Origin: Hymenobacter edaphi
GTDB taxonomy: Bacteria > Bacteroidota > Bacteroidia > Cytophagales > Hymenobacteraceae
Direction of reading: 5' to 3'
NCBI RefSeq assembly: GCF_003258365.1
Contig: NZ_QHKM01000003.1
Span: 186,001 to 250,000, forward strand
Length of the DNA: 64,000 nucleotides
How positions within the stretch are numbered: the stretch's first letter is position 1; every line of letters starts with the position of its first letter. Shown here one piece after another: positions 24,383 to 36,628 of this stretch. The notes under the pieces were generated by a model, which worked only from the letters and a program-made list of their open reading frames with translations, searched no databases and had not been told where the DNA came from. The position numbers and the translations under genes are program-made.

Positions 24383-25225
24383 ATGCGCAGCACAACAACC
24401 ATTCTGGGGCTGGGGTTATGCCTGCTTGGCGGCCTGGGCCTGCTGCCGGCCTGCCAGTCCTCCGACGCCGGGCAATCGGCCGGGCCCCCGAGCACCCGGA
24501 TCAGTGCCCGGCCGGCCGTAGCTACTACGCAGCCTGCCCCCGCGAAGCTATTGCCGGGCTTGCCCGATTCCTTGCAGCCCCAGCCGCTGGCCCCGCTGCC
24601 CGGCCTTTCCGACTCGGTGCGGGCGGAGGTGCGGCGCCTGCACGCCGCGCTGGGGCCGGAGGCGGCCACGCTGCGCCCGGCGGTGCTGGAGCGGGCCTAC
24701 GCCGGCTACCAGCGCCTGCGCCGGGCCCGGCAGCTGCGCGGCCCCCGCGTGCTGGCCGTGGCCGACATGGAGTTGCCGTCCTCCGAGCCGCGCCTCTGGG
24801 TTATCGACGTGCGCAACAGCCGCCTGCTGCACCACAGCCACGTGGCCCACGGCCGCGGCTCGGGTGGCCTGCGCGCCCGCCGCTTCTCCGACCGGCTGAA
24901 GTCGGCCTGCACGGCGCTGGGCTTCTACCGCACCGGCGACACCTACCGCGGCAAGCACGGCCTCTCGCGCCGCCTGCACGGCCTCGACCGGGGGCAGAAC
25001 GGCCACGCCAGCAGCCGCTACGTGGTGCTGCACGCCGCCGATTACGCCAGCGCCGACTACCTCGCCCGCCACGGGCAGCTGGGCAATAGCCGCGGCTGCC
25101 CGGCCTTGCCGCCCGCCCAGTACCGGGCCATCATCAACCGGCTGGAGGAGGGGAGCTGCCTGTTTATCTACGGGCCCGATGCAGCGTACGCCTCGCGTTG
25201 GCTGCCGGCAACGTCTTGGCAATGA
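24383..25225 (+). CDS. YkuD_2-family (murein L,D-transpeptidase-like) lipoprotein
   Basis: Starting at 24383 the product is 280 residues with a lipoprotein signal ending LLPAC (Cys24). The conserved part runs from about residue 125 (LAVADMELPSSEPRLWVIDV) to GNSRGCPALP (about 234-243). The latter carries the Cys of the YkuD-type active site, with a candidate catalytic His in VVLHAADY (about 216). This is the YkuD_2 family (PF13645), related to L,D-transpeptidases that act on peptidoglycan. Activity is inferred. A paralogue lies at 35780. The upstream open frame is not used because it would place the lipobox internally. Confidence 0.87.
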   Translation: MRSTTTILGLGLCLLGGLGLLPACQSSDAGQSAGPPSTRISARPAVATTQPAPAKLLPGLPDSLQPQPLAPLPGLSDSVRAEVRRLHAALGPEAATLRPAVLERAYAGYQRLRRARQLRGPRVLAVADMELPSSEPRLWVIDVRNSRLLHHSHVAHGRGSGGLRARRFSDRLKSACTALGFYRTGDTYRGKHGLSRRLHGLDRGQNGHASSRYVVLHAADYASADYLARHGQLGNSRGCPALPPAQYRAIINRLEEGSCLFIYGPDAAYASRWLPATSWQ

Positions 25226-25603: not shown

Positions 25604-27724
25604 ATGAAGAACGGTTTCCGCCCGTTATTCTTCCTGGGCTTGTCGGCAGCCGCGGCGCTTGGCGTCGTGGCCTACAGCGGGCAGCAAGCCCCGCTGGAAG
25701 CCTCAAGCCACCGCGAAGCCCCGTTGATTGCCGACGACCCGCTGGCCGACAACACCGACCTCTACGCCTTCCGTTCGCCGGACGACGACTCCAAGATTAC
25801 CATCATTGCCAACTACATTCCGCTGGAACTGCCCCAGGGCGGGCCGAACTACAACACGTTCGGCGAAAACGTGCGGTACGAAATCCACATCAAGAACAAG
25901 TCGACCAGCACGGGCGACGACATCACCTACCGCTTCACGTTCACGCGCGTCAACCAGGACCCGACCACGTTCTTCAACATCCGGCTGGGGCAGCAAAACC
26001 TGAAGACCACCTACACGATGGAGCAGAGCCTCGCGGGCGGGGCCTTCACCACGCTGATTTCCAACGGCGTAGTGCCGCCGCCCAACGTGGGCCCGCGCTC
26101 CATCACCAGCACGCCGGCCGGCCTGGGCACGACCTATAACACGCTCATGACCAACGCCGTGCAGACGCTGGGTAACGGTGGCAAGGTGTTCTGCGGCCCC
26201 GTCGACGACCCGTTCTTCGCCGACCTGGGCGGCATCTTTGACCTGGGCGGCATCCGCGCCCCCGGCCAGGCCCGCGACGGGCTGGCCCGGAAAAATACCC
26301 ACGCCATTGCCCTGCAAATCCCCATTGCGGCGCTGCAGAAGGATGGCAAAACGGCCGCACAGGCCGCCAACATCCTCGATCCGGACTTCGTTATCGGCGT
26401 GTGGGCCTCGGCCAGCCGCCCGGCCCTGCGCACCCTGAACACCGACGGCACGCAGACGCACACCGGCAGCTGGGTACAGGTGTCGCGCATCGGCATGCCG
26501 CTGCTGAACGAGGTGGTGAACCCCATCGGCGCCAAAGACGCCTGGAACGCCAAGACGCCCTACGCCGAAGCCACCGTCACCGACGACTACCTCTCCAACC
26601 CGGAGCTGGGCCTGTACATGGCCGAAGGCACGGCCAACGGCCAGACCTACTACGGCGCCGCCGTGCCCGGCCTGGGCGCGCTGCGCATTCAGTCGGCTTC
26701 GCTGGCCGGCAGCCCCGGCCTGCCCGCTGCCGGCTTCGACTTCCGCAACGGCGCCGCCGGCCTGTCGGGCCTGGCTGGTAGTTCGGCGGTTACCGGCACG
26801 GCGCTGGCCCCGGCTCCGGCCGGCTACGGCCCCTACCTGCTGCGCGCCGGCAAGCCCCGCTCGGTGGACATTCTGCCCATCTTCCACACCGGCGTGCCGA
26901 ACGCCATTCCGTACCAGCTGGCGACCGGCAAAACGCCCCGCAACCCGCTTACGGCCGGCAAGCCCTTCATCAACAACTTCCTGCTGGCCAACGCCACGGC
27001 CGCTAACCCCGGCGGCGACATGCTGCGCCTGAACATGGCCGTGCCCGTGACGCCGCGCAACTCGGCCGACTTCAGCTCGGAAGGCCTGCTGCAGGCCGCC
27101 GTGCTCGGCCTGACGGACGCGCGCTTCAACGCCAGCGCTGCCCTGCAGAACATTCCGAACATGGACGGCTTCCCGAACGGCCGCCGCCTCGAAGACGACG
27201 TGACCCGCATCGAGCTACAGGCCGTGGGTGGGGCCGTACTGGCCGCCATCGGGTTGTTCTACGACGACTACACGTCCACCTCGACCAGCCCGCTGACGCC
27301 GCGCCTGCTGGGCGTGGTCGGCTTCAACGCCGGCATCACGGCCAACGACACCACGCTGAAGGCCGCCTTCCCCTACGTGCAGACCCCCTGGAGCGGCACC
27401 AAGGCCCAGCAGACGGCCCTCTCGCAGCGCAGCAGCAACCTGAACCTGCAGCCCCAGCTGATGTCGGCGCAGGTATACCCGAACCCCTTCGGCGCCAGCA
27501 CCACCATCCGCTACGAAACGGCCGTGAAAATGCCCGTGACCATCGTCATCATGGACCTGATGGGCCGCGTGGTGGCCACGCCCGTGCGCAACAAGACGGA
27601 AGCGCCCGGCGTGCACGAGTACCGCTGGGAAGCCGGCAAGCTGGCGGCCGGCGAGTACATTGCCACCATCCGCACCGGCAACACCACGCTGCAGTCGGTA
27701 CACATTCTGCACCGCGGCGAATAG
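25604..27724 (+). CDS. DUF4331 domain protein secreted by T9SS
   Basis: The 706-residue protein begins with a signal peptide (MKNGFRPLFFLGLSAAAALG). Then comes the DUF4331 pattern SSHREAPLIADDPLADNTD, LYAFRSPDDDSKITIIANYI and ENVRYEIHIKNKS. Middle motifs include GGIFDLGGIRAPGQARDGL and KNTHAIALQIPI. The last ~85 residues (VYPNPFGASTTIRYE onward, from about 622) are a T9SS type A sorting domain, so it reaches the surface. DUF4331 has no assigned reaction. It is the first gene of a co-directional cluster with a TPR protein, a HupE-like protein, a Cys-rich protein and a TonB receptor. Confidence 0.9.
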   Translation: MKNGFRPLFFLGLSAAAALGVVAYSGQQAPLEASSHREAPLIADDPLADNTDLYAFRSPDDDSKITIIANYIPLELPQGGPNYNTFGENVRYEIHIKNKSTSTGDDITYRFTFTRVNQDPTTFFNIRLGQQNLKTTYTMEQSLAGGAFTTLISNGVVPPPNVGPRSITSTPAGLGTTYNTLMTNAVQTLGNGGKVFCGPVDDPFFADLGGIFDLGGIRAPGQARDGLARKNTHAIALQIPIAALQKDGKTAAQAANILDPDFVIGVWASASRPALRTLNTDGTQTHTGSWVQVSRIGMPLLNEVVNPIGAKDAWNAKTPYAEATVTDDYLSNPELGLYMAEGTANGQTYYGAAVPGLGALRIQSASLAGSPGLPAAGFDFRNGAAGLSGLAGSSAVTGTALAPAPAGYGPYLLRAGKPRSVDILPIFHTGVPNAIPYQLATGKTPRNPLTAGKPFINNFLLANATAANPGGDMLRLNMAVPVTPRNSADFSSEGLLQAAVLGLTDARFNASAALQNIPNMDGFPNGRRLEDDVTRIELQAVGGAVLAAIGLFYDDYTSTSTSPLTPRLLGVVGFNAGITANDTTLKAAFPYVQTPWSGTKAQQTALSQRSSNLNLQPQLMSAQVYPNPFGASTTIRYETAVKMPVTIVIMDLMGRVVATPVRNKTEAPGVHEYRWEAGKLAAGEYIATIRTGNTTLQSVHILHRGE

Positions 27725-27738
27725 CCTCGGCGCTTAAC

Positions 27739-27818
27739 GGCGGGGCGGCCCGGTGCCGCCCCGCCTACGGCCGCCGCCGGCCGCGCATCGGAGCCGCACC
27801 GATGCCGCGGCCGGCGGC
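27739..27818 (+). repeat. Two consecutive GC-rich hairpins between the DUF4331 and TPR genes
   Basis: GGCGGGGCGGC (27739-27749) pairs with 27755-27765 around CCGGT. Directly after it, GCCGCCGGCCGCG (27773-27785) pairs with 27806-27818, with an inner CATCGG/CCGATG stem (27786-27791 with 27799-27804). No T run follows, so mRNA stabilisation or partial attenuation is as likely as termination. Confidence 0.65.
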
Positions 27819-27861
27819 ACCAGCCGTAGCGGCGTTTCTCTCAACTTCCTGAATTTTCCCT

Positions 27862-29199
27862 ATGTCCCTACCTCGACGCATCCTATACGCCTTGCTGCTG
27901 GTGGGTTTTGCCGTGTCGGTGGCGGCTGTGCTGCTGGCCCGCAAGGAGGTGCCCGTGCCGCAGCTGAAGGAGCGCCGCGGCGCCCTGGCCATCGGCGGCG
28001 AGTGGCTGAACACCAAGCAGGCCGTAGCGGGCCTGCAGGAGCGCCTGCGCCGCAACCCCGACGACCACGAATCCCGCCTGCAGCTGGCCCAGGCCTACGT
28101 GCAGGAAAGCCGCGTGACCGGCGACCATACCTACTACGACGCGGCGGCGCTCAAGCTCGTGGACGAGGTGCTGCGCCGGCGCCCCGACGATTTTGAGGCC
28201 CTGTGCACCAAGGCCGTCATCAGCCTCTCGCAGCACCACTTCGGGCAGGGCCTGACGCTGGCTGAGCACGCGGCCGAGCTGAACCCCTACAACGGCTTCG
28301 TGCAGGGCCTGCTCTGCGATGCGCACCTGGAACTGGGCCACTACCCCGCCGCCATCAAGGCCGCCGACCGCATGAACGAGCTGCGCCCCGACCTGCGGGC
28401 ATACTCGCGCGTGTCGTACCTGCGCGAAATACACGGCGACGTGGGGGGCGCCCGGGAAGCCATGGACCTGGCCGTGCGGGCCGGCGTGCCCGGCCTGGAA
28501 CAAACCGAGTGGTGCCGCGTGATGCTCGGCCGCCTCTACGAAGATTCCGGTGACCTGACCCGTGCCACCGCGGCCTACCGCCAGGCCCTGCAGACGCGCC
28601 CCGGCTACGCCTACGCCCAGGCCGGTATGGCCCGCGTGGCCCGCACCCGCGGCGACTACAACACCGCCATCCGCCTGCTCAAACAGGCCCGCGCCCAGGT
28701 ACGCGACTTCGCCTTCGACGACGAGCTGACCGACCTGTACCGCCTCAACGACCAGCCTACGCAGGCCGATGCGTCGGCCCGCAACGTTATCAAGCAGCTG
28801 CAGGCCCACGCCAACACCAACGACGAGGAAGACGGGCAGGGCCACTACACCGACCGGGAGCTGGCCTACGCCTACCTCAAGGCCGGCGACCTGGACCAGG
28901 CCCTCACGCACGCCCAAACCGAGTACGAGCGGCGTCCGGCCAACATCGACGTGTGCGAAACCATGGCCTGGGTGCACTACAAGCGCGGCGACTATGCCGA
29001 AGCCCGCAAGTACATGACGCAGGCCCTGCGCACCAACTGCCGCAACCCCCAGCTGCTCTACCGCGCCGGCTGCATTGCCCTGCGCAACGGCGAAGTGGCC
29101 CGGGGCGAGTCGTGGCTGCGGCAGGCCCGCGAGCAGAACCCCAACTTCCGGCCCGACCCGACCGACCCCACGCTGCCGCCGCTGGTGGCCCGCCGCTGA
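27862..29199 (+). CDS. Membrane-anchored TPR protein
   Basis: The 445-residue protein has an N-terminal hydrophobic segment (about residues 6-25, ILYALLLVGFAVSVAAVLLA) and then a series of tetratricopeptide-like helices. Examples are NPDDHESRLQLAQAYVQESR, YEDSGDLTRATAAYRQALQT and YKRGDYAEARKYMTQALRT. It is probably anchored in the membrane with the repeats in the periplasm. It contains no catalytic motif and probably acts as a protein-interaction scaffold. It lies between the DUF4331 gene and the HupE-like gene, 27 nt before the latter, consistent with one operon. Confidence 0.85.
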   Translation: MSLPRRILYALLLVGFAVSVAAVLLARKEVPVPQLKERRGALAIGGEWLNTKQAVAGLQERLRRNPDDHESRLQLAQAYVQESRVTGDHTYYDAAALKLVDEVLRRRPDDFEALCTKAVISLSQHHFGQGLTLAEHAAELNPYNGFVQGLLCDAHLELGHYPAAIKAADRMNELRPDLRAYSRVSYLREIHGDVGGAREAMDLAVRAGVPGLEQTEWCRVMLGRLYEDSGDLTRATAAYRQALQTRPGYAYAQAGMARVARTRGDYNTAIRLLKQARAQVRDFAFDDELTDLYRLNDQPTQADASARNVIKQLQAHANTNDEEDGQGHYTDRELAYAYLKAGDLDQALTHAQTEYERRPANIDVCETMAWVHYKRGDYAEARKYMTQALRTNCRNPQLLYRAGCIALRNGEVARGESWLRQAREQNPNFRPDPTDPTLPPLVARR

Positions 29200-29226
29200 T
29201 CCGCCCCGCTCGCCCAAGAAGCTGCG

Positions 29227-29922
29227 ATGAAACCGCTTGCCTTTTCGCTCCGCGCCGGGGCCTTGCTCACCGGGGTGCTCTTCCTGCCGCTGCTGGCCGG
29301 AGCGCACCCGTTCAGCAACGTCGACATCAGCTCCCTCTCGCGGCCCCAGGCCGTGTGGGGCTACCTGCAGCTGGGCTTTCAGCACATCATCCCGCTCTCG
29401 GCCGACATGGCCTGGGGCCTCGACCACATCCTGTTCATCGTGAGCCTGTTTGTGCTGGAGCCGCGCCTGAAGCCGGTGCTGCTGCAGGCCACGGCCTTCA
29501 CGGTGGCCCACAGCATCACGCTGGGCCTGGCCGCCGCCGGGCTGATTTCGGTGGACGCGGGCGTGGTGGAGCCGCTGATTGCCTTGTCCATCCTGTTCGT
29601 GGCCCTCGAAAACCTGATTACCGACCGACTGCGGCCCTGGCGGCTGGCGGTGGTGTTCGGCTTCGGGCTGCTGCACGGGCTGGGCTTTGCCGGCATCCTG
29701 CGCGACATCGGCCTGCCCCGGCACCTGTTCTACGAAGCCCTGGTGAGCTTCAACGTGGGCGTGGAGCTGGGCCAGGTCAGCATCATTTTGCTCTGCTGGC
29801 TGATTATCGGCTGGTGGACGGCCCCGAAGCCCTGGTACAAGCAGCGCGTGCTCATGCCCATGTCGGTGTGCATTGCGCTGGTGGCCGCCTGGTGGACGGT
29901 CGAGCGGGTGTTCTTCGTCTGA
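29227..29922 (+). CDS. HupE/UreJ-family membrane protein
   Basis: The 231-residue protein has a signal peptide ending LAGAHPFSN and about six membrane helices. Conserved histidines lie in or near the helices: His27, His53 (GFQHII), His67 (GLDHILFI), His95 (VAHSITLG) and His150 (FGLLHGLGFA). This pattern is that of HupE/UreJ_2 proteins, some of which transport nickel or cobalt for hydrogenase or urease. No hydrogenase or urease gene is in the window. Its position beside a TonB receptor suggests it moves a metal across the inner membrane, which is inference. Confidence 0.88.
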   Translation: MKPLAFSLRAGALLTGVLFLPLLAGAHPFSNVDISSLSRPQAVWGYLQLGFQHIIPLSADMAWGLDHILFIVSLFVLEPRLKPVLLQATAFTVAHSITLGLAAAGLISVDAGVVEPLIALSILFVALENLITDRLRPWRLAVVFGFGLLHGLGFAGILRDIGLPRHLFYEALVSFNVGVELGQVSIILLCWLIIGWWTAPKPWYKQRVLMPMSVCIALVAAWWTVERVFFV

Positions 29923-30070
29923 CGCCGCGCGGGCGTGGTCCGATTGTTCCAGGCCGTGGTCTGATTGATTCCCCGAGCCGGCTTTTCGCCCGCTTCCTCA
30001 CTCATGAATGGCTGCTGGCGCCAGAACAACCAGTTATCTAGCCATTCACCCATTTAACAATTCAACGAAA

Positions 30071-30466
30071 ATGCGTCAGGCCTTCATCGTGCTGCTGCTG
30101 CTCAACTACCTGCTGGTGGTGGCGTGCGGCTGCGTGGGCCGGCGCACGGATGACTGGGAGCGGTACCGGCCCAAACGGGCCTACGTGCACCGCGCCACCT
30201 GCCAGCGCGACAACGCGCTGCGCCTCGACTGCTTCGACCGCTGCAACGGCGACCAGCACCGCTGGACGCCCCGGCAGGCCGGCGAAGATATCTGGCACCA
30301 CATTGCGGCTCAAGTGAACGGCACGGACGTGCACTTGCTGGCGGAAACAGCACTGCTGCCGCCGCGCCCGGCCCCGCGCCAGCCCCGGCCCACCTTCCCG
30401 AGGTGGACGCCCGCGCTGGCCCTGGGCCTGTTGGCTGAGCCCGACGCGCCACCCAGGCGGGGATAA
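30071..30466 (+). CDS. Small Cys-rich exported or membrane-anchored protein
   Basis: From the ATG at 30071 the product is 131 residues. It opens with a hydrophobic segment ending in CGC (Cys19, Cys21), so it could be a lipoprotein or retained by a signal anchor. The segment CQRDNALRLDCFDRCNGDQH (Cys44, Cys54, Cys58) recalls the short Bacteroidota proteins with a C-x9-C-x3-C arrangement that often precede TonB receptors in metal loci. The Pro/Arg-rich C-terminus is not conserved-looking. A metal-handling role is inferred from these Cys residues and the position before the receptor gene. Confidence 0.6.
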   Translation: MRQAFIVLLLLNYLLVVACGCVGRRTDDWERYRPKRAYVHRATCQRDNALRLDCFDRCNGDQHRWTPRQAGEDIWHHIAAQVNGTDVHLLAETALLPPRPAPRQPRPTFPRWTPALALGLLAEPDAPPRRG

Positions 30467-30632
30467 GACCCCGGATGCCTACCGGCCCAGAGGCCGGGCA
30501 GCCGTCCGTTCCCGGCCCAATCCACCCGCCTGCTTGCCGCGGAAGGTTGGGCGCCCGTCTTATTCTCGTCACCCGACGACCGGCTGGCCGCCGCGCAACC
30601 GCGGGCCGGCCCGGCGTCACTGCGTTGCCGCT

Positions 30633-32945
30633 ATGCCCTTACTGCTACGCTTCGGCTGCCCGACCCGGCGGCCCGGCTTGCTGTTGCTTTTCCTGATTGT
30701 GCTGTCGGCTGCGGCCGCGCGCGCCCAAACGCTGGCCACCCTGCGCGGCTCGGTGCTCGATTCGACCTCGCACCGCCCGCTGCCGGGCGTGACGGTGCGC
30801 CTCGACGGCCGCCCCGCCGACGGAGCCACCTCCGACGCCCTGGGCCGCTTCCGCCTCGGTGGGCTGCCCGCGGGCACGTATCAGGTGCGCGTGTCGGCGC
30901 TGGGCTACCGCAGCCAGACCGCGGCCCTGACCGTGGCCGCCACCGGCGCCGCGCCCGAGCCCCTGACCCTGGCGCTGGTGCCCACCGCCCTGCAGCTGGC
31001 CGAAGTCACCGTGGCCCAGCCCCGCGACCTGAACCAGAGCGTGGCCGCCATCAGCGGCATCGACCGGCAGCTGCGGCCCGTCAACTCGGCCCAGGACCTG
31101 CTGCGGCTGGTGCCGGGGCTGTTCATTGCCCAGCACGCGGGCGGGGGCAAGGCCGAGCAGATTTTTCTGCGCGGCTTCGACGTGGACCACGGCACCGACT
31201 TCGCCGTGAGCATCGACGGCATGCCGGTGAACATGGTGTCGCACGCGCACGGGCAGGGCTACGCCGACTTTCACTTCGTCATTCCCGAGGTAGTGGAGCA
31301 GCTGCGCGTGTACAAAGGCCCGTATTCGGCCCGCTTCGGGGATTTTGCCACGGCCGGCGCCGGCGAATTCACCACCAAAACCAGCCTGGAGCAAAGCCAG
31401 GTGAAGCTGGAAGTCGGTCGCTTCGACACGCGCCGGGCGGTGCTGCTGCTCGATTTGCTGGGCAAGAACGGGCACCTGTTCAGCCCGCGCGGCCGCGAAA
31501 GCGCCTACCTGGCCGCCGAGTACAACTTCACTAACTCGTATTTCGAGCAGAAGCAGCACTTCAACCGTTTCAACGGCCTGCTCAAGTACACCGGGCAGCT
31601 GTCGGAGCGCGCCACGCTGGCGGTGAGCGGCTGGCACTTCAACTCGCGCTGGGACGCCTCGGGCCAGGTGCCGGAGCGCGCCATCCGGGAGGGCCTGATT
31701 ACCCGCTTTGGCTCCATCGACCCGACCGAGGGCGGCAACACGGCCCGCAGCAATGCCAACGTGCAGCTCACGGTGGATTTGCCCCACGACGCGGTGCTCA
31801 CCCAGCAGGCGTACTACTCGCGCTACGGCTTCAACCTGTACTCCAACTTCACCTTCTTCCGCGACAACCCCACGGACGGGGACCAGATTCGGCAGAACGA
31901 GGCGCGCCACCTGGCCGGCTACCGCGGCACCTACGAGCGGGGCTTCGCCGTGGGCGGCCGCACCCTGCGCACCACGCTCGGCCTCGGTACCCGCTTCGAC
32001 GACGTGGACCTGGCCCTGCGCCACGCCGTGCGCCGCCGCGTGACGGATACGCTCGTCAGCGGCCGGGTGCAGGAGCAGGGCTACTTCACCTGGCTCGACG
32101 CCACGCTGCCGCTGTCGGACCGCCTCACGCTGAACGCCGCCGCCCGCCTCGATTACTTCCGCTTCCGCTTCCGCGAAGACCGGGTGGACTCCCTCTCGGG
32201 CCGGGCCGGCAAAGCCCGCGTCAGCCCCAAGCTGAACCTGTACTACCAGCTCAGCCCGGCCGTGCAGCTGTTTGCGCGCTCCGGCTTCGGCTTTCACTCC
32301 AACGACGCCCGCTCGGTGGTGCTCAACCGCGCCGGCGCCCTGCCGCGGGCCATCGGCTACGAAGTCGGCTCGAACTTCAAGCCCGTGCCCGAGCTGGTGG
32401 TGAACCTGGCCGTGTGGGCCCTGCACCTGCAGGACGAGCTGATCTACGTGGGCGACGAGGCCGTGGTGGAAAGCGCCGGCCGCACCCGCCGCCTGGGCGT
32501 CGACGTGGCCGTGCGCTACCAGCTCACGCCCGCCCTCTTCGCCGACGTGGACCTGAACCTGAACCACGGCCGCTCGGTGGACGACCCCCGGGGCGAAAAC
32601 TACATTCCGCTGGCGCCCAGCCGCACCAGCATCGGCGGCCTGACCTGGAAACGACCCAACGGCCTGAGCGCCAGCCTGCGCTACCGCCACGTCGACAGCC
32701 GCCCGGCCAACGAGGACAACTCGGTGCGCGCCCGCGGCTACACCCTCGTCGACGCCGTGGCCAGCTACACCCACCGCCGCTACCAGCTGGGCCTGACGGT
32801 GGAAAACCTACTGAACGTGGACTGGAACGAGGCTCAGTTCGACACCGAAAGCCAGCTGCGCGGCGAGGCCGCCCCCGTTTCGGAGCTGCACTTCACGCCC
32901 GGCACCCCGTTCTTCGCCAAGCTGACAGGCAGCTTCTTTTTCTAG
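30633..32945 (+). CDS. TonB-dependent outer membrane receptor with His-rich plug
   Basis: The 770-residue protein has a signal peptide (to about residue 34, AAARAQ). A CarboxypepD_reg-like domain (about 36-115, LRGSVLDSTSHRPLPGVTV) follows, then a plug (about 130-255) and a ~500-residue beta-barrel ending LHFTPGTPFFAKLTGSFFF with the terminal aromatic residue. The plug contains IAQHAGGGKAEQIFLRGFDV and VSHAHGQGYADFHF (about 201-214), with several His that could contact a metal or metal complex. The receptor uses TonB energy for uptake through the outer membrane. It ends the DUF4331-TPR-HupE cluster. The substrate is unknown. Confidence 0.92.
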   Translation: MPLLLRFGCPTRRPGLLLLFLIVLSAAAARAQTLATLRGSVLDSTSHRPLPGVTVRLDGRPADGATSDALGRFRLGGLPAGTYQVRVSALGYRSQTAALTVAATGAAPEPLTLALVPTALQLAEVTVAQPRDLNQSVAAISGIDRQLRPVNSAQDLLRLVPGLFIAQHAGGGKAEQIFLRGFDVDHGTDFAVSIDGMPVNMVSHAHGQGYADFHFVIPEVVEQLRVYKGPYSARFGDFATAGAGEFTTKTSLEQSQVKLEVGRFDTRRAVLLLDLLGKNGHLFSPRGRESAYLAAEYNFTNSYFEQKQHFNRFNGLLKYTGQLSERATLAVSGWHFNSRWDASGQVPERAIREGLITRFGSIDPTEGGNTARSNANVQLTVDLPHDAVLTQQAYYSRYGFNLYSNFTFFRDNPTDGDQIRQNEARHLAGYRGTYERGFAVGGRTLRTTLGLGTRFDDVDLALRHAVRRRVTDTLVSGRVQEQGYFTWLDATLPLSDRLTLNAAARLDYFRFRFREDRVDSLSGRAGKARVSPKLNLYYQLSPAVQLFARSGFGFHSNDARSVVLNRAGALPRAIGYEVGSNFKPVPELVVNLAVWALHLQDELIYVGDEAVVESAGRTRRLGVDVAVRYQLTPALFADVDLNLNHGRSVDDPRGENYIPLAPSRTSIGGLTWKRPNGLSASLRYRHVDSRPANEDNSVRARGYTLVDAVASYTHRRYQLGLTVENLLNVDWNEAQFDTESQLRGEAAPVSELHFTPGTPFFAKLTGSFFF

Positions 32946-33161: not shown

Positions 33162-35537
33162 TTACTTCACCACCAGCTTGCGCGTGAGGTGCAGCTCGGG
33201 CACGCTCACCGTGTACACGCCGGCGGGCAGCTGCCGGGCCGGTTGCAGGCGCGTGGTGGTCGAGCCGGGGTAAAGTTTTAAAGCTTCCTGGTGCACGCGG
33301 CGGCCGGTCAAATCGTGCAGCTGCAGCGTTACCGTCTGCTCCTCGGGCGCCACCAGCGTCAGCTCGATGCGGTCGGCGGCCGTCGGGTTCGGGTACAGCT
33401 GCAGGTCGGCGGCCACGTTCAGCTTGGCATCGGCCGTGCTGGTAACGGTGGCGCTACGGCCGGCCGTGGCGGTGTTGATGACGGTCGGCGCTGTGTAGGT
33501 CACTTTCACGAAGGCCGGCTGGGCCGGGTTGGTGGTGGCGTTCTGGCGGGCGCGCAGCGTAATCCAGCCGTCTGCGGTGGGCGTGTAGGTGCCCGTGAGC
33601 GTGCCGGTGCCCGTCTTGCTGCTCACCAGCGTGCCGGCCGCGTTGTAGAGGCCCACCACCAGCGAGTAGGCGCCGTTGGAGGGAAACAGGTTGTAGCTCA
33701 CCGTCTTGTTGGCCGCCACGTAGATGCGGCCGGCCGTGCGCCAGGCCGTCGACGAGGCCGGCAGCTTGCCGCCCTGGCCCAGGGAGCGGGTGTCCCGGTC
33801 GCCGAGGTCGTCGTTCAGCTCCCATTCCTGCGTCGTGCTCATGGCGGCGCGCACGTAGTTGGTGCCGATGTTCACCGGGGCCCACACCGAGTAGCCGCGG
33901 CGGCCGGCGGTGGCCGTGCCGTTGCAGGGCGGGGTGTTGATGCTCACCGTCTGCGAGCCGCTCACCGTCACGGTGGCCGTGCCGTTGGCGCCGGAGTAGT
34001 CCTTCAACACCGTGCCCGGGGCGAAGTCGCACGACACCGTGTTGTTCTGCCAGGCCGAGAAGTTGTCGTTGATGCCGATGAGGGCCTTGGTGCTGCGCTC
34101 GATGACGAGGTGGTCGGCGGCCTGGTAGCGCACCTTGTAGGCCCCGTCCTTGAAGCGCAGGTTCTGGTGGCACCAGATCAGGTTTTCCAGGTCCGAGCGC
34201 GTGGGCAGGTCGGTGGTATTGGTCGGCTTGTGCGAGAAGCGTTTGCCGGTGTTGCCCACGTTGAAGAGGTCCTCAAAGAAAATCTGCGGGGAGCCGTCGA
34301 GGGCCAGCGCGGCGGCGTAGGTGGCCGAGAGGCGCGGGTCAAACGGGTCGATGTGCGGGGCCAGTTCCGAGCCGGTGTTCCAGCCGGTGTAGTTGCCGGT
34401 GCTGCCAGTCTGGGGCCGGAACGTGTCGTGGTTGTTCACGAAGGGCACCGTGCGGTGCACGTACTGCCCGCCGATGTTGACCACCCGCGTGCCCTGCTGG
34501 TAGCCCGGCAACGAGCCGAGGTCGAAGTTGCCGCCGCCGCTGACGATGCTGTAGAGCCCGTTGCGCAGCCCGAAATCAAAGGTGCCCGCGCGGTTCTGTA
34601 CGTTGGTGCACCACTGGTCGAGCTGGGAGCCGCCGCCTACCCATTCGCCCACGGCGTACATGCCCGCGCCGCCCGAGGCCCAGCCGGCGTTGCTCTGCAG
34701 GTTATACAGGAAATCTTCGGTGGCGAAGTCCGGGAAGTGCTTCACCGCGTCGAGGCGCACGCCGTCGAAGCCTACCTGCTTTTTATACCAGATCAGCCAG
34801 TTGCGGGCCCCGGTGCGCATATAATCGGCCGTCTGCGCGGGGTTGAAGGTGGCGTTGGAGCTGCTGCCGTAAGAGCCGGAGTAGTAGCTCACATCGGGCC
34901 CGAAATACACCGCGTTCCAGTCGCCGGAAGTAGAATTATTGCCGGGGTTGGGGTTGAAGTTCTGCCAGTTCTTGGGCCAGCGGCCCGAGCGCGCCAGGTA
35001 GTTGGCGGCGTCCTCGGCGGAGGCCGGCGTGTTGTAGGAGACGTAACGGAAGTTTTTGTACTTACTCGTGTTGTAGTCTTCCCAGGCGGCTGGGTCCTGC
35101 CCGCCCGCGCCCGACTGCGAGCCGGCCCCGTCGACGTGGTTGAGCACCACGTCCTGCACCACTTCGATGCCGTTGGCGTGCAGCACGGCCACCATGCGCA
35201 GCAACTCATCCTTGGTGCCCAGGCGCGTGCCTACAAAGCCCTTTTGGTACTTGTCGCCGAGGTCGTAGTGGTCAAACGGGGAGTAGCCGTTGCCCTGGTT
35301 GCCGTTCTTGATGCTCGGCGGAATCCAGACCGCATCGACGCCCATGGCCTTGAGGCGGGGCGCCAGCTCGGCCAGGTAGTTGGCCCAGCCGTTGGGGTAG
35401 TTGGAGTTCCAGTAGTCCCACCAGAAGCCCTGGAGGACGACTTTGGATTGTGCCTGTGCGGGGGAGCCCAGCAGGAGGGCCACACCGACTGCGGCCAGCG
35501 TCCCCAGACGGGACGCGGTGCGCCAGATTTTCAGCAT
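33162..35537 (-). CDS. Secreted alpha-amylase (GH13) with T9SS sorting domain
   Basis: The ATG complement at 35537 gives 791 residues with a signal peptide (MLKIWRTASRLGTLAAVGVA to PAQAQ). The GH13 barrel shows DVVLNHVDG, the nucleophile Asp in FDGVRLDAVKHFP (about 262), the acid/base Glu in YAVGEWVGGG (about 298) and the transition-state Asp in FVNNHDTF (about 368). It should hydrolyse alpha-1,4-glucans outside the cell. A beta-rich domain follows. The last ~80 residues (LQLYPNPTAADRIELTL onward) are a T9SS type A sorting domain. The longer upstream frame is rejected because it buries the signal peptide. Confidence 0.94.
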   Translation of the reverse strand: MLKIWRTASRLGTLAAVGVALLLGSPAQAQSKVVLQGFWWDYWNSNYPNGWANYLAELAPRLKAMGVDAVWIPPSIKNGNQGNGYSPFDHYDLGDKYQKGFVGTRLGTKDELLRMVAVLHANGIEVVQDVVLNHVDGAGSQSGAGGQDPAAWEDYNTSKYKNFRYVSYNTPASAEDAANYLARSGRWPKNWQNFNPNPGNNSTSGDWNAVYFGPDVSYYSGSYGSSSNATFNPAQTADYMRTGARNWLIWYKKQVGFDGVRLDAVKHFPDFATEDFLYNLQSNAGWASGGAGMYAVGEWVGGGSQLDQWCTNVQNRAGTFDFGLRNGLYSIVSGGGNFDLGSLPGYQQGTRVVNIGGQYVHRTVPFVNNHDTFRPQTGSTGNYTGWNTGSELAPHIDPFDPRLSATYAAALALDGSPQIFFEDLFNVGNTGKRFSHKPTNTTDLPTRSDLENLIWCHQNLRFKDGAYKVRYQAADHLVIERSTKALIGINDNFSAWQNNTVSCDFAPGTVLKDYSGANGTATVTVSGSQTVSINTPPCNGTATAGRRGYSVWAPVNIGTNYVRAAMSTTQEWELNDDLGDRDTRSLGQGGKLPASSTAWRTAGRIYVAANKTVSYNLFPSNGAYSLVVGLYNAAGTLVSSKTGTGTLTGTYTPTADGWITLRARQNATTNPAQPAFVKVTYTAPTVINTATAGRSATVTSTADAKLNVAADLQLYPNPTAADRIELTLVAPEEQTVTLQLHDLTGRRVHQEALKLYPGSTTTRLQPARQLPAGVYTVSVPELHLTRKLVVK

Positions 35538-35779
35538 GAGTAAAGGTTGGGAATGCGGTAAGGGAAAAGGGACAGAACCGGGATGTGTGCACGCAAACCG
35601 GGGCGGTAAGTTGCGGAATATTTTTAGGTTCCACAATCGTTTGCGAAGGTTTTTAAGCCCCGGCGGAATCATCCGCGGCCCCGGCCCGTTGATAATATCA
35701 GTTGCAGCCTATATCGGGGCCGCATCGTATAGAGCCTAAACGGGCCGTAAGACCCTGTAGCCCAAACGAAACTCCTCCG

Positions 35780-36628
35780 ATGGAAAAGCATAATAGCGTC
35801 GTTCACCGCCTCCGTCTGAAAGTCAAGGCGCGCCGTCTGGCCCGCCGGGCGCTGCCGTTCGTGGCTTCTCTGTTCCTGGCTACGCCGCTGGCCGGGCCGG
35901 TGCGCACCACGCAGGCCCACGGGCACCAGCTGCCGGTGGCCCTTAGCCACCCCGCCGCGCCGTCGCCCGTCACGCTGCTTACCCAGGGCACGCGCCAGCT
36001 CTACAACGAGCTGAACCTGGGGCAGCAGGGCCTGAGCTTCGACGTGTTTGAGAAGGCCTACACCGGCTACCTGAATCTGCGCGCCGAGGACAAGCTCGAC
36101 CCCAGCCGCCAGTTGCTGGCCGTGGCCGATTTCGACCTGCCCAGCACCGAAAAGCGCCTGTGGGTGCTCGATCTGGACAAGAAGGCGGTGCTGTTTCACA
36201 CGCTGGTGGCCCACGGCCACAACTCCGGCGAAAACGTGGCCACCACTTTCTCCAACCAGAACGAGTCGAACATGAGCAGCCTGGGCTTCTACGTGACCGA
36301 TGCCGAGTACGTGGGCAAGCACGGCCGCTCTCTCAAGCTCGACGGCCAGGACCTGGGCTTCAACGACAACGCCCGCGAGCGGGCCGTGGTGATGCACGGC
36401 GCCGAGTACGTGAGCGAAGACTTTATCAAGCAGAACGGCCGCCTGGGCCGCAGCCTCGGTTGCCCGGCCCTGCCCATGGACCAGTACGCCCAGATCATCG
36501 ATACGCTCGGCAAGGGGGCCTGCCTGTTTCTGAACGGCAACGACCCCAGCTACCAGTCGCAGTACCTCGATACCGCTGAAGCGGCCCGCGTCTACGCGGC
36601 CGTCGACGGCGGCGGGCAGGCGGTGTAG
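35780..36628 (+). CDS. YkuD_2-family (murein L,D-transpeptidase-like) exported protein
   Basis: The ATG at 35780 gives 282 residues. A basic N-terminus and a hydrophobic stretch (ALPFVASLFLATPLAGPV) form a signal peptide without a lipobox Cys. The conserved core runs from YNELNLGQQGLSFDVFEKAY through VVMHGAEYVS (His about 204) to LGRSLGCPALP (Cys about 226), the YkuD_2 active-site pattern. It is a paralogue of the lipoprotein at 24383, with the same order of motifs but a free rather than lipid-anchored N-terminus. It is divergent from the amylase gene. The peptidoglycan role is inferred from the family. Confidence 0.87.
   Translation: MEKHNSVVHRLRLKVKARRLARRALPFVASLFLATPLAGPVRTTQAHGHQLPVALSHPAAPSPVTLLTQGTRQLYNELNLGQQGLSFDVFEKAYTGYLNLRAEDKLDPSRQLLAVADFDLPSTEKRLWVLDLDKKAVLFHTLVAHGHNSGENVATTFSNQNESNMSSLGFYVTDAEYVGKHGRSLKLDGQDLGFNDNARERAVVMHGAEYVSEDFIKQNGRLGRSLGCPALPMDQYAQIIDTLGKGACLFLNGNDPSYQSQYLDTAEAARVYAAVDGGGQAV

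Follow-up and report, generated by a model that had tools for sequence, protein, structure and literature searches.

A DUF4331-centred operon of Hymenobacter edaphi that may capture and import nickel or cobalt

The DNA of Hymenobacter edaphi considered here is a stretch of 64,000 nucleotides, hereafter called the window. At positions 25604-32945 it carries five genes, all on the + strand, which were delineated by reading of open reading frames (ORFs) and by Pfam matches (Table 1). They code for a DUF4331 protein (PF14224 in Pfam), a tetratricopeptide repeat (TPR) protein, a HupE/UreJ-2 permease (HupE), a small exported Cys/His-rich protein and a TonB-dependent receptor (TBDR). The matches to the Pfam families DUF4331, TPR, HupE_UreJ_2 and TBDR agree with a preliminary description that had named five co-directional genes of these types. 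The core of the operon recurs in several phyla, and the whole looks like an undescribed nickel (or cobalt) capture-and-import system built around DUF4331, a family for which no paper using the names DUF4331 or PF14224 was found in the literature searched. We consider it probable, if well short of certain, that the operon serves to acquire nickel and possibly also cobalt.

Table 1. Genes and predicted features of the DUF4331 operon (window positions)
Feature	Position	Strand	Basis
DUF4331 protein, 706 aa	25604..27724	+	export leader and type IX secretion system (T9SS) C-terminal tail; Pfam DUF4331 6.6e-127 (residues 34-595)
Ser-Ser-His, predicted mature N-terminus of DUF4331 (ATCUN-type X-X-His)	25703..25711	+	leader comparison
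DUF4331 domain as modelled, residues 34-609	25703..27430	+	AlphaFold2
T9SS sorting tail of DUF4331, residues 624-696	27473..27691	+	PF18962
TPR protein, 445 aa	27862..29199	+	Pfam TPR families; hydrophobic N-terminal segment
HupE/UreJ-2 permease, 231 aa	29227..29922	+	PF13795 8.3e-45; leader end LAGA, His27 = predicted His1
Small exported Cys/His-rich protein, 131 aa	30071..30466	+	conserved Cys/His in alignment; without family match
TonB-dependent receptor (TBDR), 770 aa	30633..32945	+	Pfam plug and barrel; family beside nikR, hoxN, urease genes
Receptor plug segment with H168, H186, D189, H204, H206, D212, H214	31134..31274	+	family alignment

The receptor is probably the best guide to the cargo metal. 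It has the plug (PF07715, 4.6e-19) and barrel (PF00593, 1e-26) of a TonB receptor together with a CarboxypepD_reg match, and the ATG at 30633 is a likelier start than an upstream TTG. Relatives were assigned to its family with a score cut-off of 300 bits and a length of 450, and two (L139 and L140) were added by hand. The preliminary description had remarked upon its His-rich plug. Of the plug residues, H168, H186, D189, H206 and D212 are present in 107 of 107 members and as a set are absent from 17 other sequences, while H555 and D558 are present in 106 of the 107, in both cases in all gene contexts. These shared plug residues are putative metal ligands common to receptors from the different contexts. 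A tree of 124 sequences separates 16 outgroup receptors (support 0.97), places the urease-linked receptors inside the group with most of the DUF4331-linked ones, and clusters the proteobacterial receptors with two Bacteroidota members, one of which is DUF4331-linked. Among the sequences outside the family, L137_9 was counted as an outgroup receptor but is a mis-called frame, which adjoins HupE and contains the C-terminal portion of a receptor. On a Comamonadaceae plasmid (L137:12271-12897), a frame annotated as SMP-30 follows HupE directly and resembles the C-terminal part of a TonB receptor; judging from this frame, the receptor may once have been part of a proteobacterial operon too.

When gene associations are compared, the receptor family is found beside nikR, hoxN, urease or cobalt genes. 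The proteobacterial relatives read have 30-34% identity over 74-84%. The nikR gene adjoins the receptor gene in Afipia, a Comamonadaceae strain, Methylomagnum, Paraburkholderia (as nikR-hoxN-TBDR) and Polymorphobacter, and hoxN/hupN lies within 5 kb of it in Cupriavidus pHG1, Bradyrhizobium and Sphingopyxis, the last of which also has cobW and cobN. Taking nikR and hoxN/hupN together, 8 of 11 plasmid receptor loci from Proteobacteria have such a gene no more than 5 kb away, versus 0 of 6 control TBDR loci (Fisher p 0.007). Both sets were hand-picked and non-random, the former from 40 listed of 78 records and the latter, representing a different receptor family, from 40 listed rows, and the PLSDB gene tables are incomplete. 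One of the control loci, on the Novosphingobium plasmid pLA3 (L176:1847-7079), lies in a DUF4198-HupE operon, a parallel layout with another receptor family in which genes for DUF4198, a hypothetical protein, HupE/UreJ, a second hypothetical protein and a TonB receptor stand in a row.

In an even sample of 395 Bacteroidota genomes, the receptor family was found in 54 genomes at E <= 1e-80. Clear urease is present in 13 of the 395, and in four of these (G186, G206, G210 and G316) a family receptor lies 6-8 kb from ureC, closing the urease operon behind the genes for a urea transporter and a hydrophobic HX5DH protein. Both ureC and the urea transporter were confirmed with Pfam in all four genomes, and the HX5DH proteins from the two that were tested gave no NicO match in Pfam. 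A similar layout occurs on a broken contig of G265, and one urease-receptor locus (L155) also contains a porin-like gene. On a plasmid of Hymenobacter sp. GOD-10R (L147:2817-13654), a receptor gene of the family has as neighbours a long HupE gene, three DUF3500 genes and a gene for cytochrome c peroxidase. Because the relatives of the receptor adjoin nikR, hoxN and urease genes, because the plug ligands are shared, and because NicO replaces HupE in some lineages (see below), the likeliest cargo would be nickel, or perhaps cobalt. These observations also sustain the earlier suggestion of a metal acquisition system for which nickel or cobalt is a possible load.

The clustering of the operon genes is not due to chance. 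DUF4331 matches are present in 48 of the 395 sampled genomes, and are full-length in 22 besides the window's own, some of these loci being on short contigs. A TPR gene is located directly downstream of DUF4331 in 20 of the 22 full-length loci and nearby in 21, whereas a TBDR of the family is near in 11, HupE in 8, either of the two in 16 and all three partners in 3. Among the 25 genomes with split or weak matches, 11 were fetched, and all 11 encode DUF4331 as separate N-half and C-half genes; TPR is next in 9 of these loci, a receptor is near in 7, genes for an extracytoplasmic function (ECF) sigma factor and an anti-sigma factor are present in 5 and HupE in 1. In the genome_contigs set, whose best 79 loci are biased in coming mostly from Hymenobacter, the recurrent order is DUF4331-TPR-HupE-(small)-TBDR; 78 of these loci have a countable DUF4331, and TPR is found in 62, HupE in 60, TBDR in 55, all three in 54 and the Cys-rich protein in 36. 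The co-occurrence whose absence would have refuted the earlier suggestion is conserved in other genomes, although DUF4331-TPR is its core and the full five-gene set is a Hymenobacter type. Genes for an ECF sigma factor and an anti-sigma factor also stand beside the operon at L117:5860-6938 and L123:6243-7422, and the anti-sigma protein of L117 carries a cupin domain.

DUF4331 is not confined to one phylum, having been found in Bacteroidota, Proteobacteria, Actinomycetota and one Ignavibacteria metagenome-assembled genome (MAG), and in the last three groups as well DUF4331-TPR is accompanied by a nickel-type permease. Alpha-, beta- and gammaproteobacterial loci have HupE/UreJ-2 downstream of DUF4331 and a TPR-like gene. 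Plasmids of Pseudoalteromonas, a Comamonadaceae strain and Marinobacter carry DUF4331, a small gene, a TPR-like gene and HupE, and a Lichenicola plasmid carries DUF4331, a TPR-like gene and HupE. In all four loci HupE scores above the Pfam cut-off, as does TPR in those of Pseudoalteromonas and Marinobacter. The Pseudoalteromonas operon (L138) is preceded by genes for an ECF sigma factor and an anti-sigma factor with an RskA domain. Streptomyces has DUF4331-TPR-NicO, with NicO in the position of HupE, and the same order is present in the Ignavibacteria MAG (NicO E 2.4e-21).

The DUF4331 protein of the window shares 95% identity with its H. jeollabukensis counterpart. Its C-terminal sorting domain, which is characteristic of T9SS cargo, matches both PF18962 (Por_Secre_tail; 1.7e-6, 28.6 bits, cut-off 27) and TIGR04183 (2.8e-7, 30.4 bits, cut-off 23); the preliminary description had taken the protein to be surface-secreted. 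At the other end, comparison of 114 distinct sequences revealed that the end of the leader precedes Ser-Ser-His in 103 and Ala-Asp-His in 11, with Ala at position -1 in 111; this count left out 24 proteins whose leader is shorter than 15 aa and 13 that lack the motif. Eight proteins from Proteobacteria and Actinomycetota were read, and all of them have small residues at -3 and -1. The sequence NH2-X-X-His constitutes the amino-terminal Cu(II)- and Ni(II)-binding (ATCUN) motif, a strong chelator of Ni(II) and Cu(II), so cleavage before X-X-His would leave an ATCUN N-terminus on mature DUF4331. The leader pattern gives a hint of this exact cleavage site. Out of 118 loci with genuine DUF4331 (119 by label, a few being one genome twice), 7 have a gene for signal peptidase I immediately upstream of DUF4331 and 3 others have one at another place in the locus; 3 of the 10 calls were tested in Pfam and the others were made with a profile built from those three. 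The immediately upstream genes and the others fit a need for exact leader processing.

DUF4331 genes also occur in tandem. In 22 of 29 such pairs an untailed first copy is followed by a T9SS-tailed second copy, while neither copy is tailed in 5 and both are tailed in 2; single-copy DUF4331 proteins have the tail in 71 of 78 cases. The untailed/tailed pairing looks as if one copy acted outside the outer membrane and the other behind it. Eight Hymenobacter loci (L098, L104, L106, L107, L109, L124, L127 and L129) carry a DUF4331 gene of 573-616 aa followed by a double-length DUF4331 gene of about 1260 aa, with no TPR or HupE labelled adjacent.

The DUF4331 domain alone (576 residues) was modelled with AlphaFold2 on 82 sequences, giving a predicted local distance difference test (pLDDT) of 85.1 and a predicted template modelling score (pTM) of 0.89. 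In this model the N-half is beta-rich and the C-half helical, the first residues are of low confidence, and the border between the halves corresponds roughly, not residue by residue, to the point at which the flavobacterial genes are split. A comparison of the modelled domain with the PDB gave 0 matches at E <= 0.001. A full-length model from 25 sequences was poor (pLDDT 67), and its top PDB matches, which are short Ig-like alignments probably due to the T9SS tail or to chance, were set aside. A heme/DOMON identity was abandoned as well, there being no match.

The HupE protein of the window scores 152.7 bits against PF13795 (cut-off 24.5). HupE/UreJ proteins carry the membrane motifs H..DH and HG, and the window protein has these conserved His/Asp motifs: residues H53, D66, H67, H150, G151, N176 and E180 are invariant in 11 of 11 aligned sequences. 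In HupE copies with a leader, the leader mostly ends in A, G or S and is followed by His, and both NicO replacements start in the same manner; in contrast, copies located away from DUF4331 often have no leader (5 of 7 seen). A crude leader rule gives His1 in 45 of 60 HupE proteins with a called leader, with 18 more lacking a called leader, versus 13 of 535 other proteins. These leader comparisons favour the predicted His1 site, and the rule backs it better than it backs the DUF4331 site.

Less can be said about the two remaining proteins. The TPR protein has a hydrophobic N-terminus that, on inspection by eye, makes a membrane anchor likely, and a scan of viral contigs with this protein confirmed no relative. 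The small protein has 3 Cys and 2 His residues that are identical in 42 of 42 aligned Hymenobacter-type sequences, including that of the window. It has no family match, nor any plasmid match at E <= 1. Among the loci fetched, its label occurs only in those of Hymenobacter and of two further genomes from that family; some other loci have instead another small protein rich in His.

A plausible user of nickel is present in the host, since the genome of the window encodes urease, along with a 203-aa gene whose NicO match stays under the cut-off. Among eight genomes of the genus, four have both DUF4331 and the receptor, three of these four have urease, and the other four have none of the three. Across 195 Hymenobacteraceae genomes, DUF4331 is present in 105, urease in 100 and both in 69 (Fisher 1.1e-5), where neither the weak matches, at E about 1e-4, nor the fragment found in G419 were taken as urease. 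This co-occurrence provides weak support for the nickel reading because the test ignores kinship and one genus is opposed to the trend.

The genes, their conservation, the family and contexts of the receptor, the shared ligand residues and the leader pattern come from computation; from them we infer the metal, its binding, the cleavage site, the protein contacts and a route with the following direction and order of transfer. DUF4331 would be exported, and signal peptidase would leave Ser-Ser-His free at the N-terminus, where it would bind Ni(II) as an ATCUN chelate. At the cell surface, the T9SS-tailed protein might offer the metal, as such or in a complex, to the TBDR, whose His/Asp-rich plug would pass it into the periplasm. 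In that compartment, its transfer to HupE could involve the small Cys/His-rich protein, the TPR protein as a membrane-anchored scaffold and, where present, an untailed DUF4331; the N-terminal His1 of HupE would feed the inner-membrane permease. Urease would be one likely nickel user in Hymenobacter. A bolder proposal, which we put forward only tentatively, is that DUF4331 represents a new family of secreted nickel hooks whose Ser-Ser-His or Ala-Asp-His is exposed by signal peptidase, a dedicated one being encoded beside it in some lineages. Surface and inner copies would then relay nickel across the His-plug receptor to the His1 permease through a chain of processed N-termini.

Several observations weigh against nickel acquisition as proposed. 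HupE is not nearby in 14 of the 22 full-length loci of the phylum sample, and the TBDR is not nearby in 11. The TPR match falls below the Pfam cut-off in the Comamonadaceae and Lichenicola loci, and DUF4331 genes of Sulfitobacter and Paracoccus adjoin type II secretion genes without HupE. Of the 11 proteobacterial receptor loci, 3 have no nikR or hoxN within 5 kb, one of them being near cobalamin genes and two having no nickel or cobalt gene in view. Profile searches of the window's genome gave no NikR (NikR_C) match and no NiFe hydrogenase match; NikR control is not seen in the host itself, and NikR is not a strict requirement for a nickel/cobalt receptor. Urease is missing from 36 of the 105 Hymenobacteraceae genomes with DUF4331, and therefore cannot be the only user. 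The genus g173 has 5 genomes with DUF4331 and 17 with urease, of which 2 have both, and G387, a member of Hymenobacteraceae with urease and DUF4331, has no TBDR of the family. The predicted N-terminus of DUF4331 is also open to objection. The crude rule cuts exactly at X-X-His in 17 of 83 DUF4331 proteins with a called leader and gives His1 instead in 16, and 57 further proteins have no called leader; it yields X-X-His in 0 of 8 split N-halves and in 12 of 535 other proteins too. Residue -3 is Leu in 72 of the 114 leaders, and a hydrophobic core is not seen in 5. From the literature, the isolated Ang domains of HupE/UreJ-2 proteins are reported to favour Cu over Ni (PMC12537917). A HupE/UreJ gene of Sphingobium ba1 is reported to be up-regulated by nickel excess (PMC5557971), so a role in storage or detoxification is conceivable.

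In a rival reading, the N-terminal His sites might instead load surface or periplasmic copper enzymes, with the receptor carrying copper or a mixed metal chelate, or zinc might be the cargo. The affinity of ATCUN sites, and of N-terminal His sites, for Cu(II) is at least equal to that for Ni(II). A small protein rich in Cys and His is in keeping with copper, a zinc ABC transporter is present in one nikR-linked receptor locus, and a heavy-metal P-type ATPase gene adjoins the Afipia receptor, so that genes for other metals do occur near the family. However, the recurrent neighbours of the receptor family are nikR, hoxN, urease and cobalt/cobalamin genes, and it is NicO that takes the place of HupE. 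Moreover, the window TBDR scores 24.7 with the copper-receptor model TIGR01778, far under the cut-off of 472.45. We regard copper or zinc as unlikely on these grounds.

A different question is whether DUF4331-TPR belongs to the metal genes at all, or is an independent exported module for structure, adhesion or secretion that merely settles beside them. The near-universal DUF4331-TPR pairing would suit such a module, as would the Sulfitobacter and Paracoccus loci, Miltoncostaea, where DUF4331-TPR has no transporter annotated adjacent, and some Hymenobacter tandems that lack an adjacent TPR or HupE. Yet HupE or a receptor of the nickel family accompanies 16 of the 22 sampled loci, and HupE or NicO is found downstream in proteobacterial, actinobacterial and ignavibacterial loci, both too recurrent for bystanders, which makes this explanation quite improbable. 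The genes might also be concerned with nickel or cobalt in excess, with DUF4331 sequestering the metal outside the cell and HupE or NicO acting in storage or efflux. The NicO family includes exporters such as RcnA, and the induction observed in Sphingobium ba1 points the same way. In opposition, TonB-dependent receptors work inward, and members of this receptor family are found in urease operons and beside nikR and hoxN. We consider sequestration or detoxification very unlikely.

Nickel acquisition also gains context from the nearest known systems. The N-terminal-His domains of HupE/UreJ-2 proteins termed 'anglerases' bind Cu, and one also binds Ni, in vitro (PMC12537917). Like these, the window HupE is a PF13795 permease with His predicted at position 1 after leader cleavage, and its relatives include long His1-type forms of 359-439 aa. 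Unlike them, it is short, with a permease domain that begins at residue 46 of 231, only 19 residues after His27, and without a separate Ang domain, and it is accompanied by DUF4331, TPR and the receptor. The DUF4198 proteins described in the same paper, one of which binds Ni in vitro, stand beside TonB receptors and NikR. They share with the window's DUF4331 protein its export, a predicted N-terminal metal-binding His and a location beside TonB and nickel genes. The window protein differs in belonging to PF14224, in having its His at predicted position 3, and in possessing a T9SS tail and the modelled domain that lacks a PDB match. The main text of PMC12537917 contains no occurrence of ATCUN, TPR or tetratricopeptide. 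An outer-membrane TonB-dependent nickel route is represented by the predicted nickel/cobalt transporters of region VIII, cluster 52 (PMC2771747) and by FrpB4, the nickel receptor of Helicobacter (PMC3856676), and relatives of the window receptor are linked to nikR. In contrast, the receptors considered here are from Bacteroidota and belong to operons with urease or DUF4331, and NikR gave no match in the window's genome.

Two YkuD_2 L,D-transpeptidase genes identified with Pfam flank the cluster, one on each side (24383-25225 and 35780-36628, both on the + strand), and the left side also has a divergent gene for Hsp70. On the right, a gene for an alpha-amylase-like protein with a T9SS tail (33162-35672, opposite strand) adjoins the receptor gene. 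An Rfam search of the window and four related loci at the gathering threshold revealed no riboswitch, the single type of match being a tRNA, and a promoter scan gave nothing useful.

If nickel acquisition is the correct reading, the DUF4331 family would gain a function that can be tested, and the nickel/cobalt receptor family would extend to the urease and DUF4331 operons of Bacteroidota. In addition, X-X-His would constitute a second kind of processed N-terminal metal site, beside the one in the His1 proteins that supply HupE permeases and were described recently.

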